Part shown: positions 26,424 through 62,835 of the stretch, in pieces | Numbering within the stretch: the stretch's first letter is position 1 | Layout of the letters: every line of letters starts with the position of its first letter | Notes under the pieces: generated by a model | Seen by the model: the letters and a program-made list of their open reading frames with translations, nothing else | Told to the model about the DNA's origin: nothing | Database searches by the model: none | Source: Cloacibacterium caeni | GTDB taxonomy: Bacteria > Bacteroidota > Bacteroidia > Flavobacteriales > Weeksellaceae | Direction of reading: 5' to 3' | NCBI RefSeq assembly: GCF_907163125.1 | Contig: NZ_OU015319.1 | Span: forward strand, 1,240,001 to 1,304,000 | Length of the DNA: 64,000 bases | Made by a program: the position numbers and the translations under genes

Positions 26424-26487
26424 CAAAAATTCAAGACTTAGAAACTCGACTAAATAAACAAAAATTACTTATTATTTCTAAGCGTAA

Positions 26488-26586
26488 CTAGCCCTGATTG
26501 CAACGGAAATCCTGTTATTGTGAGCAAAAACTTGGGATTGCTTCGCTTTGCTTGCAATGACAGATTGCAGAGGAAAGCAGGATTAG
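26488..26586. repeat. Composite REP-like element in the guaA-purD spacer
   Basis: About 99 bp bounded by near-complementary ends CTAGCCCTG and CAGGATTAG (eight of nine positions pair in RNA). The two halves share ATTGCAACGGAAA/ATTGCAGAGGAAA. Its centre holds a second inverted repeat ATTGC...GCAAT. From recall, similar strings recur in flavobacterial spacers; a genome search is needed to confirm copy number. Confidence 0.55.
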
Positions 26587-26595
26587 CTCCTAAAA

Positions 26596-26622: not shown

Positions 26623-27861
26623 TTAAAATTTTCCGATGTCTTCTCTGTAAAATGCGTAGTCGAAATGAAGTGTTTTAGCATCTTCATAGACTTTTTCGCG
26701 AGCTTCTTCGTAAGTATCACCAGTTGCAACCACATTTAGCACTCTACCAGAATTGGTGACTACTTTTCCTGCAATTTGCTCTGCTCCAGCAAAGAGAACA
26801 TTGCTGTGTTTTACCTTGTCTAAACCTTGGATTTCGTAACCGATTTCATAATTCCCAGGATAACCGCCAGAACACATCACGAGACAAATCGCCTTCTTGT
26901 CTGAAAACTGTAAATCTAAATCTTTTCCTTCGATACAGTCATGGATAACATCTAACAAATTATTCTCTAAAAGTGCCATGATGACTTGCGTTTCTGGATC
27001 GCCAAATCTCATGTTATATTCTAACAAATAACATTGATTATCTTGTACCAAAACACCAAAAAATATAATCCCTACAAAATCAAGTGCTTTGTCTTTAATT
27101 CCTTTAACGGTAGGCTCTAAAATATTTTTATTAAAATCTGCTAAATGCTCTGCCGTAAATTCTGGACTTGGAGCTACAGTTCCCATTCCACCAGTATTTG
27201 CGCCAGTATTTCCGTTTCCTACTTTTTTATAATCTTTGGCAGAAACACATGGAAAAGCTTTTTCACCATTCCAAAAAGCAATAATAGACGCTTCGAAACC
27301 TTGTAAAAACTCTTCTATGACAACTTTTATTCCAGCATCTCCATAAATTCTTTCAATCATGAATTGGTGCAAAGTGTGATGCGCGGTTTCTTTGTCTTCA
27401 CAAATAACTACTCCTTTTCCGCTTGCTAAACCACTTGCTTTAATCACCAAAGGATAAGAATGATTTTGGATATATTTATCTGCTTCTACATAAGAATCAA
27501 AAATAGCAGCTTTAGCTGTTCTTATGCCATAATCTTGCATAAATTTTTTAGAAAAAGCTTTGCTTCCTTCTAAATCTGCGGCACGTTTTGTTGGGCCAAA
27601 AATTTTGAGATTATGTTTTTGAAATTCGTCTACAATACCATTAACTAAAGGTAATTCTGGACCTACGAATGTGAAATCTATTTTTTCTCTAAGAGCAAAA
27701 TCTCTTAACTCTGCTACACTCTCATAAGGCAAGTTTTTACCCAAATTTTCTGTTGTAGCATTGCCTTTTGCAAAAAACATTTGACTGATTCTTTTGTCTT
27801 CTGATAATTTTTTTGCAATAGCAGATTCTCTACCTCCGTTTCCTATTATTAATACTTTCAT
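26623..27861 (-). CDS. purD: Phosphoribosylamine-glycine ligase
   Basis: ATP-grasp enzyme making GAR from phosphoribosylamine and glycine in IMP synthesis; cytoplasmic. The 412-residue protein starts with the pre-ATP-grasp motif VLIIGNGGRESAIAKKL, and has VIKASGLASGKGVVIC (about 139-154), NTGGMGTVAPSP and MRFGDPETQVIM (metal ligands). This length is slightly below the usual 420-430 but all domains are present. Fourth gene in the order purM, purN, purH, purD. The 44 bp upstream repeats the word ACCAAATAC. Confidence 0.97.
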   Translation of the reverse strand: MKVLIIGNGGRESAIAKKLSEDKRISQMFFAKGNATTENLGKNLPYESVAELRDFALREKIDFTFVGPELPLVNGIVDEFQKHNLKIFGPTKRAADLEGSKAFSKKFMQDYGIRTAKAAIFDSYVEADKYIQNHSYPLVIKASGLASGKGVVICEDKETAHHTLHQFMIERIYGDAGIKVVIEEFLQGFEASIIAFWNGEKAFPCVSAKDYKKVGNGNTGANTGGMGTVAPSPEFTAEHLADFNKNILEPTVKGIKDKALDFVGIIFFGVLVQDNQCYLLEYNMRFGDPETQVIMALLENNLLDVIHDCIEGKDLDLQFSDKKAICLVMCSGGYPGNYEIGYEIQGLDKVKHSNVLFAGAEQIAGKVVTNSGRVLNVVATGDTYEEAREKVYEDAKTLHFDYAFYREDIGKF

Positions 27862-27971: not shown

Positions 27972-29486
27972 TTAATGTAAGAAATGTCTCATTCCTGTGA
28001 ACATCATTGGAATTTTATGTTCATTAGCAGCTGCAATAGAATCTTCATCTTTTACAGAGCCACCCGGTTGAACAATCGCTGTAATTCCTTCTTTAGCACA
28101 GAAATCTACCACATCTCTGAATGGGAAAAATGCATCTGAAGCGAGAACTAAATTTCCTGAAAATTTCTCTTTCGCTCTAGAAATCGCTTGTTCAGTAGCC
28201 CAAATTCTATTCACTTGACCGCCTCCAATTCCGAAAGCTTGAATTCCGTTTGAAACTACTATAGCGTTAGATTTTACATATTTAACCACTCTTTGAGCAA
28301 ATAAAAGTGCTTTTTCTTGCTGTTCTGTTGGTTGAATTTCTGTAACTACTTTAAAGTCTGTAGAAAATTGGTCATCTACATCTTGAACCAAAATTCCGCC
28401 ATCTATTTTCACCCAAGTTTTTTTGTCTGAAACTGGATTTTTGATTTTTATAATTCTAAGATTTTTCTTCTTTCTCAAAATTTCTAGCGCCTCTTCATCA
28501 AAATCAGTTGCCATTACAATCTCAAGGAAAGTTTTGTTGAGTTCTTCCGCAGTTGCCGCATCTACTTTATAATTCATTCCGATGATTCCACCGAAAATAG
28601 AAATTGGATCGCATTCAAAAGTTTTGGTATAAGTTTCTAAAGCAGTAGTTCCGATGGCAACTCCACAAGGTGTAGAATGTTTTACGGCACAACAAGCCAT
28701 TTCATCTTTGAATTCATTAACCACTTTCCAACATAAATCCATATCTCTCAAATTATTGAAAGAAAGTTCTTTGCCTCCTAAAATTTCGAAATCTTTCATC
28801 GCACCGTTTTCAGTAGTAGAAACGTAATACGCTGCCGATTGATGAGGATTTTCGCCATATCTTAAATCAGAAACTTTTTGGTAAGAAGCCTGTAAATATT
28901 CAGGATAATCTTCATTCAACAACATTTGAGAAATCGCAGCATCATAAGCAGAAGTTAAGTTGAAAACTTTACCTGCCAATTTTTTACGAGTTTCAATTGT
29001 AGTATCGCCGTTTTCAGAGATTTCTTGTTGAACTTTAGCATAATCTTCCACATCGGTAACTACAGTCACAGAAGCGAAATTTTTAGCAGCAGAACGAAGC
29101 ATTGATGGTCCACCAATATCGATAAATTCTACTTTTTCTTCTAATGAAATTTCTTTATTTACATTTTCGAAAAACGGATAAAGGTTTACAATTACCATAT
29201 CAATCAGCTCTATTCCGTGTTCCTGAACGGTTTTCATGTGTTCTTCATTATCACGAACTGCTAATAAACCGCCGTGAACTTTTGGATGAAGGGTTTTTAC
29301 TCTTCCGTCTAACATTTCAGGAAAATTGGTCACTTCATCAATCTGAATTGGGTTAAGTCCCGCTTCTTTAAGATGTTTGAAGGTTCCGCCAGTAGAAATG
29401 AGTTCGTAATTTTTAGATTCTAAAAATTTGGCAAAATCAATAAGATTGTTTTTGTTGGAGACACTGATTAATGCTCGTTTTTTCAT
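27972..29486 (-). CDS. purH: Bifunctional AICAR formyltransferase/IMP cyclohydrolase
   Basis: Catalyses the last two steps of IMP synthesis; cytoplasmic. The 504-residue protein has the MGS-like IMP cyclohydrolase domain first ([41 protein letters not shown], about residues 61-74) and the AICAR transformylase domain after about 200 ([26 protein letters not shown] with the catalytic Lys-His; [23 protein letters not shown]). The length matches the family. The leader is 64 bp from purN. Confidence 0.97.
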
Positions 29487-29513: not shown

Positions 29514-29559
29514 ATTGGAACGAATTCCAATTCTGTAAAATCTGTCGTTCCTATGGAAC
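29514..29559. repeat. Two small palindromes at the purN-purH junction
   Basis: ATTGGAA/TTCCAAT around CGAA (29514-29531) and GTTCC/GGAAC around TAT (29547-29559, overlapping the purN stop). The second belongs to the same TTCCTAYGGAA family as palindromes at 55005 and 55056. Confidence 0.5.
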
Positions 29560-30123
29560 TCTTTTATTTAAAACCAAGTCAATCGCTTTCGGGAAAATCT
29601 CGTACTCGATTTGATGCACTTTCTGTGCTAAAGTTTCTGGAGTTTCATTTTCTGCAATTTCAAATTTTCCTTGAAGGATAATTTCGCCTTCATCAATTCC
29701 AGAAGTCACAAAATGAACAGTTGCACCACTTTCTTTTTCTTGGGCTGCAATTACCGCTTCGTGAACGTGATGTCCCCACATTCCTTTTCCACCGAATTTT
29801 GGCAATAAAGCAGGATGAATATTGATGATTTTTCCTTTGTATTTTTCACAAAAATTTTTGCTCAAAATTGATAGAAAACCAGCTAATACAATCAAATCTG
29901 TATTTTCGGGCAAAAGTTTTTCTAAATTTTCAGAGAAATCTTTTCCTCTTTTGATAAGTTGATGCGGAATTTGATGATTTTCGGCTCTTTCTAAAGCATA
30001 GCAATCTCTGTCTGCAACCACCAAATTGACTTTTGTATTGCTGATTTCTCCATTATCAATACAATCAATGATTCGCTGTAAATTGCTACCAGAACCCGAA
30101 ACTAAAACTGTAATATTTTTCAT
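29551..30123 (-). CDS. purN: Phosphoribosylglycinamide formyltransferase
   Basis: Transfers a formyl group from 10-formyl-THF to GAR; cytoplasmic. At 190 residues it is a normal PurN. The N-terminus is VLVSGSGSNLQRIID, and the active site has INIHPALLPKFGGKGMWG (Asn and His, about 100-117) and the Asp in SGIDEGEIILQ. The stop codon lies inside a small palindrome. The upstream leader has five copies of a 7-bp word. Confidence 0.97.
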   Translation of the reverse strand: MKNITVLVSGSGSNLQRIIDCIDNGEISNTKVNLVVADRDCYALERAENHQIPHQLIKRGKDFSENLEKLLPENTDLIVLAGFLSILSKNFCEKYKGKIINIHPALLPKFGGKGMWGHHVHEAVIAAQEKESGATVHFVTSGIDEGEIILQGKFEIAENETPETLAQKVHQIEYEIFPKAIDLVLNKRVP

Positions 30124-30192: not shown

Positions 30193-31182
30193 CTATATTA
30201 ATTGAATTTTCTCTTCGTTTTCTACGATTTCACCTACTAAATAAGCGTCTTCGATTAAAGAAAGTGCTTTTTCGGCAAGGCTTTCATCTACTACGATAAC
30301 CATTCCTACTCCCATGTTAAAAGTACCGAACATCTCCATTCTTTCGATGTTTCCACGTTTTTCTAATTCTAACATTACATTTGGAATTTGGATTTTAGAA
30401 GTGTCTATTTTCGCACATAATCCATTCGGAATAATTCTCGGAACGTTTTCTATTAAACCGCCACCTGTAATATGAGCAATTCCTGAAATTTCCAAATTTT
30501 CTTTCAGTTTAAAAACGTCTTTGTAATAGAGTTTCGTAGGAACTAAAAGTGTCTCGTAAAGAGGTTTTCCTTCGAATTCTTCTTCAAAATTTGGAAAAAT
30601 TTTTCTTACCAATGAAAAACCATTGCTGTGAAAACCAGAACTTGGTAAAGCGATGATTTTATCACCCATTTTTATTTTAGAACCATCAATAATTTGGTCT
30701 TTTTCAACAATTCCTACGCAGAAACCTGCTACATCGTAATCTCCTGGTTGATACATTCCTGGCATTTCTGCGGTTTCACCACCAATTAATGCGCACTCAT
30801 TGTCTTTGCAAGCATTTACCATTCCTAGAACAATTTCTGCTGCTACATCTGCATCTAGTTTTCCGCAAGCTAAATAATCTAAAAAAAATAGAGGTTTTGC
30901 GCCATGACACAGAATATCATTGGCACACATCGCAAAACAATCTACACCAATAGAATCATATTTTTTGGTATCTAATGCAATTTTTAATTTGGTTCCTACT
31001 CCATCAGTTCCAGAAACCAAAACAGGATTTTTATAGCCACCAATTTCATAGAAAGCTCCAAAACTTCCTAGATTGTTCAGTACATTTTTATTGTGCGTTT
31101 CGGCTACTGCAGATTTTATTTTGTCTACGGTTTTGTAGCCTTCTTCTTTGTCTACGCCAGCTGATTTATACGTATTATTCAT
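30193..31182 (-). CDS. purM: Phosphoribosylformylglycinamidine cyclo-ligase
   Basis: Forms AIR from FGAM with ATP; cytoplasmic. The 329-residue protein has the PurM/AIRS fold with VSGTDGVGTKLKIA (about 57-70), DCFAMCANDILCHGAKPLFF, ALIGGETAEMPGMY, and the C-terminal HITGGGLIENVPRII and FNMGVGMVIV. First gene of the local purine series. Its leader contains an attenuator-like hairpin ending about 20 nt before the ATG, and a promoter box 97 nt upstream, so premature termination may tune purine synthesis. Confidence 0.96.
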   Translation of the reverse strand: MNNTYKSAGVDKEEGYKTVDKIKSAVAETHNKNVLNNLGSFGAFYEIGGYKNPVLVSGTDGVGTKLKIALDTKKYDSIGVDCFAMCANDILCHGAKPLFFLDYLACGKLDADVAAEIVLGMVNACKDNECALIGGETAEMPGMYQPGDYDVAGFCVGIVEKDQIIDGSKIKMGDKIIALPSSGFHSNGFSLVRKIFPNFEEEFEGKPLYETLLVPTKLYYKDVFKLKENLEISGIAHITGGGLIENVPRIIPNGLCAKIDTSKIQIPNVMLELEKRGNIERMEMFGTFNMGVGMVIVVDESLAEKALSLIEDAYLVGEIVENEEKIQLI

Positions 31183-31203
31183 TTTTCTTTTTGTTTTTTT
31201 TCT

Positions 31204-31232
31204 GAAAAACTTGCAGGACTTTATCCTGCAAG
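31204..31232 (-). promoter_or_regulatory. Attenuator-like hairpin in the purM leader
   Basis: Minus strand: perfect 9-bp stem CTTGCAGGA/TCCTGCAAG with a TAAAG loop, followed at once by TTTTT, about 21 nt before the purM ATG. Outer bases CTGAA/TTCAG extend the stem. The upstream leader segment GTTTGCAG (31262-31269) can pair with CTGCAAG of the 3' arm, giving a mutually exclusive antiterminator. The alternative is a dispersed hairpin repeat with no regulatory role. Confidence 0.55.
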
Positions 31233-31279
31233 ATTCAGGTTTTTACTAGATTTATTTCAAACTGCAAACGCATTGAAAA

Positions 31280-31287
31280 TCAAAAAT
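31280..31287 (-). promoter_or_regulatory. -7 promoter box of the purM transcript
   Basis: TATTTTTG on the minus strand with a TTG about 20 bp upstream (in the terminator stem of the preceding RNA unit). It predicts a leader of roughly 90 nt before purM. Confidence 0.45.
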
Positions 31288-31296
31288 AAACGATAC

Positions 31297-31328
31297 AAAA
31301 AAAGCCGACAATCGTTCTGATTATCGGC
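31297..31328 (-). terminator. Terminator of the candidate small RNA
   Basis: Ten-bp stem GCCGATAATC/GATTGTCGGC (one U-G pair) with an AGAAC loop, followed by seven T on the minus strand. It is 180 nt beyond the pirin stop, unusually far for a pirin terminator. Confidence 0.88.
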
Positions 31329-31425
31329 CTCAATTATTTTGCTGCGTATTTTAGCTTCCCAATTTCTTGGAATGTACAAGAGCCAAAATGTTGCGATTTA
31401 ATATTCAATTTGTTTGGAATTTGAT
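31297..31425 (-). ncRNA. Candidate structured small RNA between pirin and purM
   Basis: A free-standing transcription unit with no ORF. On the minus strand a TAATTTTG box (31430-31437) has a TTG 20 bp upstream. The predicted RNA is about 125 nt and ends in a terminator. Inside it, ATTTTGGCT pairs with AGCTAAAAT, enclosing a 6-bp hairpin TTCCAA/TTGGGA capped by a GAAA tetraloop. AU-rich unpaired segments flank this stem, and outer AATCAAATT/AATTGA can close the fold. Closing stem, open bubble and apical stem recall 6S-type RNAs (a 6S-Flavo family exists), but that identity is only a hypothesis. Confidence 0.5.
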
Positions 31426-31429
31426 TTCG

Positions 31430-31460
31430 CAAAATTATATTTTTTATTGACAAAAAGCAA
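31430..31460 (-). promoter_or_regulatory. Promoter of the candidate small RNA
   Basis: TAATTTTG (31430-31437) as the -7 box and TTG (31458-31460) as the -33 element, spaced 20 bp, as expected for the Bacteroidota primary sigma factor. Confidence 0.55.
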
Positions 31461-31507
31461 CAGAAAAAATATTTTTTCTTCATTGCTCTTCAATTTTAAC
31501 TTAATTT

Positions 31508-32230
31508 TTAGATTTTGGGCAATTCCATTGGAACTTCAATCAATAAAATTTCAGAATCCTTATCTATTTCTAAATCAAAATGTTCTGTTTCTGTAATTCC
31601 TAAAGCATCTCTTTGCCCAAGAGTATTTTCGGCTATTTTCACACTTCCTGAAATAACGAAAACGTAAACTCCATTTCCTTCTTTTTTAACTTGATAAGTT
31701 CTAGAAGATTTTTCGGTGAAATTTCCTAAGTGAAACCAAGCATCCTGGTGAATCCAACTTCCTTCATCATTAGGATTAGGAGAAACAATCTGTTGAAATT
31801 CATTCTCTACTGCATTGTCAGAAATTTTCAATTGGTCGTATCTTGGTTCTACTCCCATTTTATTAGGAATGACCCAAATTTGCAATAAAGTTACGGGTTG
31901 TTCTTTACTTCCGTTAAATTCACTGTGTTGAATTCCTGTTCCTGCACTCATCACTTGAATTTCGCCTTTTTTAATTGCTCCAAAATTCCCCATAGAATCA
32001 CGGTGATGCAACTCTCCACTTAATGGAATGGTCACAATTTCCATATTTGCATGTGGATGCATCCCAAAACCCATTCCTTTTTCTACAAAATCGTCATTGA
32101 GAACTCTTAAATTTCCGAAATGCACTTTGTCTGGATTGTAATAATTTGCAAAAGAAAAACTGTGATTGGCAACTAACCAACCGTGATTTTGAAATCCTCT
32201 TTCGCTTGCTTTATGTAATATTGTTTTCAT
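31508..32230 (-). CDS. Pirin-family protein (cupin, quercetinase-like)
   Basis: Bicupin protein of 240 residues from ATG 32230; a TTG seven codons upstream is less likely. Pirin N-terminal domain motifs are HGWLVANHSFSFANYYNP and GFGMHPHANMEIVTI, where the HPHANME box supplies the metal-binding His, His and Glu. LHHRDSMGN and AGTGIQHSE add further ligands. Some pirins are quercetin 2,3-dioxygenases, others redox-sensing regulators; the role here is unknown. A TAACTTTG box lies 31 nt upstream. Its 3' side leads into the small RNA unit. Confidence 0.92.
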   Translation of the reverse strand: MKTILHKASERGFQNHGWLVANHSFSFANYYNPDKVHFGNLRVLNDDFVEKGMGFGMHPHANMEIVTIPLSGELHHRDSMGNFGAIKKGEIQVMSAGTGIQHSEFNGSKEQPVTLLQIWVIPNKMGVEPRYDQLKISDNAVENEFQQIVSPNPNDEGSWIHQDAWFHLGNFTEKSSRTYQVKKEGNGVYVFVISGSVKIAENTLGQRDALGITETEHFDLEIDKDSEILLIEVPMELPKI

Positions 32231-62649: not shown

Positions 62650-62835
62650 GTCAGTCTGAGCGAAGTCGAAGACTTTGGGCGCCAATTTGACTCCTAAAGT
62701 CGTCGAACCACTTCGTTAGGTTTCCGCCTTCCGCTCCCACTTTTTTAAAATTTTCCGTTCGTTCAATATAAAAAGTTCGGAAAATCAAAAAATTTTAAAA
62801 AGAGTTCCGCTTCAGTCGGGGCGCAGTTTTCGTCT
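62650..62835. repeat. Structured intergenic element after the Sua5/YrdC gene
   Basis: A G+C-rich island in AT-rich DNA. It starts with GTCTGAGCGAAGTCGAAGAC (62654-62673) and continues with a foldable 146-bp core. Helices are GCGCC/GGCGC (62679-62683/62820-62824), GACT/AGTC (62689-62692/62814-62817), CCTAA/TTAGG (62693-62697/62716-62720) capped by CGAA/TTCG, and TTTTCCG/CGGAAAA near 62751-62784. No ORF. Probably a dispersed repeat; function unknown. Confidence 0.5.

Follow-up and report, generated by a model that had tools for sequence, protein, structure and literature searches.

A candidate attenuator and a putative small-RNA site in the purM leader of Cloacibacterium caeni and related Weeksellaceae

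The purM locus and its transcription signals

The window, i.e. the whole 64,000-nucleotide stretch that was analysed, corresponds to positions 1240001-1304000 of contig 1 of the 2.98 Mb Cloacibacterium caeni genome (G000) and carries on its minus strand, in this order, purM, purN, purH and purD, followed by guaA (Table 1). Two Flavo-1 RNAs (RF01705) also lie in the window, one at 26486-26588 (+) between purD and guaA, on the opposite strand, and one at 62716-62827 (-); the whole genome holds 31 Flavo-1 matches, 23 of them above the family cut-off.

Table 1. Features of the purM operon, its leader and the unlinked small-RNA gene (window positions unless stated otherwise)
Feature	Position	Strand	Remarks
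purM (AIR synthetase)	30193-31182	-	First gene of purM-purN-purH-purD; NCBIfam TIGR00878, 409.8 bits vs cut-off 236
purN	29551-30123	-	Assigned by reading frame and sequence
purH	27972-29486	-	Assigned by reading frame and sequence
purD	26623-27861	-	Assigned by reading frame and sequence
Promoter P1	31430-31460	-	TTG 31460-31458, N20, TAATTTTG 31437-31430; Bacteroidota -33/-7 type, from sequence
Leader ORF	31334-31408	-	TTG start at 31408, 24 codons, TAA at 31336-31334; (M)NIKSQHFGSCTFQEIGKLKYAAK; stop 5 nt before terminator stem
Small hairpin inside ORF	31350-31371	-	GAAA-capped, (U)UCCAA-GAAA-UUGGGA; predicted fold
Intrinsic terminator	31297-31331	-	13-bp stem (31331-31301) and T7, between leader ORF and purM; pair changes on both sides in relatives
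Possible second promoter P2	31281-31311	-	TTG 31311-31309, N20, TATTTTTG 31288-31281; local to close relatives
sRNA-complementary site	31240-31266	-	UGCAGUUUGAAAUAAAUCUAGUAAAAA, in the purM 5'UTR; 27 nt, i.e. 26 Watson-Crick pairs and one G-U
Hairpin after the site	about 31205-31238	-	Core CUUGCAGGA-UAAAG-UCCUGCAAG; between sRNA site and purM start; fold at 31232-31210, z = -4.6
Second half-site	31178-31186	-	AAAAAUGAA, covers the purM start codon; predicted by cofolding of sRNA and leader
sRNA gene	contig 1, 2367607-2367530 (outside the window)	-	Unlinked to purM; about 70 nt, predicted; loci L002 and L241

A first-pass annotation of the DNA upstream of purM, made from the letters alone, had described a transcription unit without an ORF, with a promoter, about 125 nt of RNA, a GAAA-capped hairpin and a strong terminator with seven T, and had likened its fold to that of 6S-type RNAs. 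This description is confirmed in part. The promoter TTG-N20-TAATTTTG followed by a terminator before purM is present and conserved at this position in relatives, the RNA starting at P1 would extend from about 31424 to 31297 (-) and thus measure about 125-130 nt, the hairpin CCAA-GAAA-TTGG is there, and so are the terminator stem and its seven T. In the surrounding 700-nt region, two terminators were found, whereas 0.3 are expected from shuffled sequences, and the RNA from P1 to the terminator folds with an MFE z-score of -3.9. Among the 84 purM upstream regions examined first, 75 contain the terminator, and every terminator-bearing leader has a TAnnTTYG box about 103-126 nt 5' of it, with the -33 TTG of P1 present in 32 of 74 leaders. 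The pairing of the terminator and of one small hairpin is conserved in relatives (98.1% of cells paired, three pairs changed on both sides), a level that only one of 500 shuffles reached. The first-pass annotation had proposed covariation in the spacers between pirin and purM as a check, and conserved pairing is indeed seen, but the unit belongs to purM and not to that spacer: it stays before purM even where the upstream gene differs (e.g. L005, L048, L049), and the pirin-purM spacer was therefore ruled out as the conserved unit. Two other families and the group f16 possess a PurM of the same type but no such leader, and in most of the remaining families PurM is distant.

The box that the first-pass annotation had taken for the purM promoter, with its TTG inside the terminator (P2), does exist in the window, but it is not conserved. 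A P2-like TTG-N17-23-TAnnTTTG between the terminator and the purM ATG occurs in only 5 of 74 leaders, the window included, four of them in the close group of the window, and it is absent from L005, L048 and L049, all of the same genus as the window; P2 as a general purM promoter was thus ruled out. In the 69 leaders that lack it, the terminator stem may begin merely 57-90 nt before the purM ATG. As no conserved promoter follows the terminator, purM should be expressed only by readthrough in most genera, unless a promoter of an unrecognised type is present. Throughout the family, the terminator thus lies between the sole conserved promoter and purM, with no conserved promoter behind it, while P2 leaves this in doubt for the window.

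A reading frame between promoter and terminator

The claim that the unit lacks an ORF fails. Promoter and terminator enclose a 24-codon ORF, the frame of which is retained across the family: an ORF was found between box and terminator in 74 of the 75 terminator-bearing leaders (of the 84 regions), the exception being L086. With a fixed test, which demanded that the ORF start 10-28 nt downstream of the -7 box, comprise 18 codons or more and stop near the stem, 68 of 68 distinct leaders passed vs 8.9% of dinucleotide shuffles, but for this count duplicates had been removed and the ORF-less leader had been dropped beforehand, so that 74/75 is the honest figure. The stop codon lies 5-11 nt before the stem in 60 of 68 leaders vs 2.3% of the shuffles, and at 5-7 nt in most of them. 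In 67 distinct sequences there is no in-frame stop, whereas the other two frames have stops in 55-56 of the 67, a comparison in which the frame had been chosen as the open one. Forty further Chryseobacterium-type leaders gave 33 open ORFs with the strict pattern, and the remaining seven were open by reading.

Selection on the peptide itself appears to be modest. In Chryseobacterium-type leaders the third codon positions are the most variable, and pN/pS of the ORF is 0.71, 0.54 and 0.52 in three groups and higher in the other frames, but a column-permutation test for selection at the peptide level gave p = 0.105, and purifying selection is therefore suggestive only. What speaks for the ORF is thus its frame, its length and the position of its stop. 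Between genera, the peptide sequence is almost unrecognisable, whereas the position of the stop relative to the terminator is retained, and neither a run of codons for a single amino acid or of regulatory codons nor a conserved arrest motif was found in the ORF. We read this as an ORF whose translation probably matters more than its product.

These features also bear on what else the unit could be. An autonomous noncoding, 6S-like RNA would agree with the promoter, the terminator, the size and the two hairpins, but a conserved ORF runs across the entire unit, a 6S-like closing stem is lacking, and the consensus structure contains nothing beyond the terminator and one helix of 3 bp. The Rfam comparison that the first-pass annotation had suggested, with the 6S-Flavo model in particular, argues in the same direction: cmscan of 31000-31700 (701 bases) at E<=10 returned 20 chance matches, none of them 6S, and no family rose above noise. 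We therefore regard a 6S-like RNA as extremely improbable. A riboswitch that binds purine, ZTP, PRPP or a similar ligand before purM has hardly better prospects; while a terminator ahead of a purine gene and some helix conservation would fit, no Rfam riboswitch matches, there is no aptamer-like conserved core outside the terminator, and what is conserved is a reading frame. Concerning the small hairpin inside the ORF, its UCC/GGA pairs are kept in 99% of cells in 33 sequences with one-sided changes only, and its counterpart in L118, CCTG..CAGG, holds the pairing with both sides changed. A long outer stem inside the ORF was also considered and rejected, as its pairing is inconsistent over 38 sequences and no run of at least four good pairs exists besides the inner hairpin.

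It could also be that the ORF is a free-standing small gene, with an mRNA from P1 that encodes a functional 24-aa peptide and ends at the terminator, and with purM being transcribed from its own P2. The good P2 in the window and in three close relatives would permit such an arrangement, as would some purifying selection on the peptide. As the above-described lack of P2 in 69 of 74 leaders leaves a stem as near as 57-90 nt to the ATG, and as the peptide diverges between genera while the geometry of stop and terminator stays, we consider this rather unlikely, albeit far less so than the 6S-like RNA or the riboswitch.

A small RNA complementary to the purM 5'UTR

A BLAST search with the leader as query in the genome of the window yielded a second 27-nt match, which recurs in all seven members of the genus. 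At this unlinked locus, the strand antisense to the motif carries a -33 TTG and a TAnnTTTG box, followed by a near-invariant stretch of 40 nt and a terminator; the invariant core measures 40 nt in 16 chosen sequences. The TAnnTTTG box is found at a fixed distance in 116 of 116 loci, always 4 nt before the 30-mer, the -33 TTG in 114 and the T-run in 115 of them, and the predicted RNA would begin at the CUUUCAUUUUUACUUU end. A covariance model detected one copy per genome in 139 of 197 Weeksellaceae genomes, corresponding to 14 of 33 genera, and with strict filters no copy outside this family when 196 genomes of the order were scanned; the carriers among the matches listed include Chryseobacterium, Kaistella, Epilithonimonas, Cloacibacterium, Soonwooa, Riemerella and Bergeyella. 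Against Rfam 15, the sequence gave four chance matches at E>=2.6, and six further loci gave none at the gathering score. The locus thus appears to encode a candidate trans-encoded base-pairing sRNA with its own promoter and terminator that is absent from Rfam. A phage origin was rejected, as viral contigs contained no exact 30-mer. The sRNA gene is oriented divergently from a gene pair for a CBS-domain protein and an NAD kinase, and the divergent neighbour is present in 107 of 116 loci. In four loci of Riemerella type (L231, L234, L237, L240), the first 30 nt of the sRNA are kept and the 3' part is different, and purM of two of the genomes concerned has neither leader nor site.

The complementary site in the purM leader lies between the terminator and a further hairpin before the start codon. 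The first-pass annotation had called this leader attenuator-like, and while its regulatory appearance is supported, the site of 27 nt, which tells most about the leader, had been missed. With a match score of 49, as compared to a maximum of 27 in 60 shuffles, it is the best sRNA duplex on both strands of the 64-kb window (-36.1 vs -28.5 for the next separate place). A 16-nt core of the site is kept in several genera, in contrast to the remainder of the spacer. Sites with scores of at least 32 were found in 26 of 84 leaders, all from sRNA-bearing genomes, i.e. in 26/70 with and 0/14 without the sRNA (Fisher p = 0.004), and the site is missing from the other 44 of the 70 sRNA-bearing leaders. 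In other genera, mostly a hairpin of different sequence occupies the same place after the site, and where the hairpin is lacking (L059, L068) the site lies directly at the start codon. Cofolding of the sRNA with the window leader gave -65.5 kcal/mol, vs -27.4 and -15.0 for the two RNAs apart, with a predicted shape in which the long helix forms, the hairpin stays intact and the purM start codon is covered by nine pairs. This second half-site is short, weak alone and absent in some genera, and in L061, L088, L091 and L096-L098, where the site lies 145-215 nt from the start, the idea of two half-sites is not obviously applicable.

Complementarity is not restricted to purM. Targets were predicted from searches and from fetched stretches. 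When the antisense of the sRNA was searched in seven genomes, which represent three other genera, the best non-self matches were largely starts of purine genes, namely of purC, purK, purH, purA, purL, prs and purM, plus rpe, with the identities confirmed by NCBIfam. In five genomes, the start regions of purL, purA, purK, prs and purC had a median score of 29 vs 16 for the controls dapF, metG, dnaA, tal, galE and sua5 of the same genomes (p = 2e-8), and the purine starts also differed from 529 other gene starts (p = 4e-14), but the test is partly circular, as the purine genes were picked after the discovery search, in which some of them had appeared, and all p-values on the regulon are optimistic, as shared descent links both the genomes and the genes. 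Restricted to two genomes outside the discovery search (G000 and G044), p was 0.0009. The purine mean of 29.6 exceeds that of all 300 shuffled sRNAs (18.7, sd 1.5, maximum 23.6), while the control mean of 16.8 is slightly above its own shuffles (15.6, sd 0.6). The least biased test is that of purH, which was fetched by its position behind purM irrespective of the sRNA: its starts score 26-45 in sRNA-bearing vs 14-33 in sRNA-less genomes (p = 0.0009), whereas for purN, taken from the same fragments, the two groups do not differ (p = 0.42). In the window, purH (24), purD (22) and guaA (20) reach moderate scores and purN (17) has no match, which leaves purM as the clear target in this genome.

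Could the shared motif instead be a binding site for a protein or for the ribosome, which the sRNA locus merely resembles on its opposite strand? A-rich start regions are common in the phylum, and part of the match (AAAAAGTAAAAATGA) comes near a general start pattern and recurs at two genes of the window that are not purine genes. Against this stand the almost invariable -7 box, -33 TTG and T-run on the antisense strand of the locus, the fact that the controls exceed their shuffles modestly and the purine genes exceed theirs well, and the drop of the purH match in genomes without the locus. A mere resemblance is therefore unlikely, even somewhat more so than the free-standing small gene discussed above.

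Matches also occur elsewhere. The start of a gene near the sRNA locus that begins with MSRIFPAGVATGQ and, by its sequence, probably encodes a class II fructose-bisphosphate aldolase (fba) matches the sRNA, and a gene near the sRNA gene that begins with MSRIFPAGVATGQLVTDIFQYAKENKFALP matches in its start region with scores of 30-36 (L256, L257, L279, L290, L292 and others). Two non-purine gene starts in the window, at 1953 (-) and 18553 (+), contain AAAAAGTAAAAATGAA, with 16-17 nt complementary to the 5' part of the sRNA. In L226, L230, L238 and L239, all of the genus Cloacibacterium, a perfect 22-nt complement of the 5' part lies directly behind the stop codon of a gene and before a terminator-like hairpin, and not at a start codon, while L225, L228 and L229 have repeated small genes, followed by sRNA complements of 15-24 nt and a common hairpin. 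In view of such non-purine matches at the fba start and in 3'UTR-like places, the sRNA may have a general role that is wider than purines.

Proposed mechanism and relation to known systems

How could the two elements of the leader act together? Transcription would start at P1, cross the leader ORF and meet the terminator. A ribosome at a stop codon extends past it by about ten bases. The terminator hairpin is calculated at -17.7 kcal/mol, and at only -8.7 or -1.3 kcal/mol if 5 or 8 bases of its 5' arm are covered; as the stop codon is so near to the stem, a ribosome at this position could weaken the terminator. A ribosome that finishes or stalls at the leader stop would thus most likely cover the foot of the 5' arm and permit the polymerase to read into purM, whereas an untranslated leader would lead to termination. 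In the genus of the window, a free-standing P2 may add purM transcripts. The near-invariant unpaired 5' part of the sRNA, which we infer to be expressed like the leader RNA, would pair with the starts of purM, purH, purL, purA, purK, prs and purC and most likely block the initiation of translation. On purM, the long upstream helix would anchor the sRNA, so that its 5' end can reach the start codon across the hairpin.

What the analysis documents are the elements, their conservation, the complementarity and the co-occurrence, whereas expression of both RNAs, antitermination and repression are inferred; overall, we consider it likely that the purM-N-H-D leader (31460-31180, minus strand) is a control region that combines an attenuator with a site for a new sRNA of a purine regulon. 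There is an even chance for the more far-reaching view that in one family the whole de novo purine pathway, from prs to purA, is controlled at the level of translation by one near-invariant base-pairing sRNA, and that the purM-N-H-D leader is two-layered, with the translation-coupled attenuator first and then the sRNA site, whose halves would be joined by a hairpin to form a three-way junction over the start codon. A leader ORF and a putative sRNA site replace the earlier idea of one noncoding RNA in the purM spacer.

The known regulators of purine synthesis are repressor proteins and riboswitches, and leader peptides in this phylum have been suggested mainly for amino-acid operons. In our literature search, no sRNA covering purine synthesis was found for any Bacteroidota, and nothing relevant was found on sRNAs of Riemerella, Elizabethkingia and Chryseobacterium. 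With the leader ORF, a nucleotide operon gains a candidate attenuator, and the sRNA gives a directly testable regulon with natural controls, i.e. genera without the sRNA as well as purN inside the same operon. 6S RNA (6S-Flavo) and Flavo-1 (RF01705) are small RNAs of the same phylum, and the purM leader matches neither model.

Ribosome-mediated attenuation is established for leader peptides of the trp and his type, and tnaC provides an example of stop-codon geometry. The purM leader resembles these systems in having a short ORF and an intrinsic terminator between the sole conserved promoter and the first gene, but it differs from them in preceding a purine operon, and no run of codons for one amino acid, no conserved arrest motif and no competing antiterminator helix were found in it. 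Within the phylum, attenuation by leader peptides has been suggested upstream of amino-acid operons of Flavobacterium psychrophilum (PMC9723704), and for Bacteroides thetaiotaomicron, sORFs resembling leader peptides have been suggested in long 5'UTRs (PMC7366714). The Flavobacterium RNA Rfp18 (PMC9723704) and the Bacteroides RNA GibS (PMC7366714) are trans-acting sRNAs of Bacteroidota like the RNA proposed here, a comparison made by description only. By such description, Rfp18, which is reported to be strongly folded, to pair via its third stem-loop and to act on protease mRNAs (PMC9723704), is set apart from the present sRNA, which is mostly unpaired and matches purine genes. In its overall design, the present sRNA rather recalls the trans-encoded sRNAs of the GcvB/RyhB type. 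Such RNAs pair with several mRNAs of one pathway, at the sites where translation begins. Own promoter and terminator, an unpaired conserved 5' region and complementarity to several starts of one pathway are common to both, whereas the present sRNA is unrelated in sequence, not in Rfam 15, found in Weeksellaceae only and directed at purine genes, with a pairing of 27 nt on purM that is predicted to span a hairpin.
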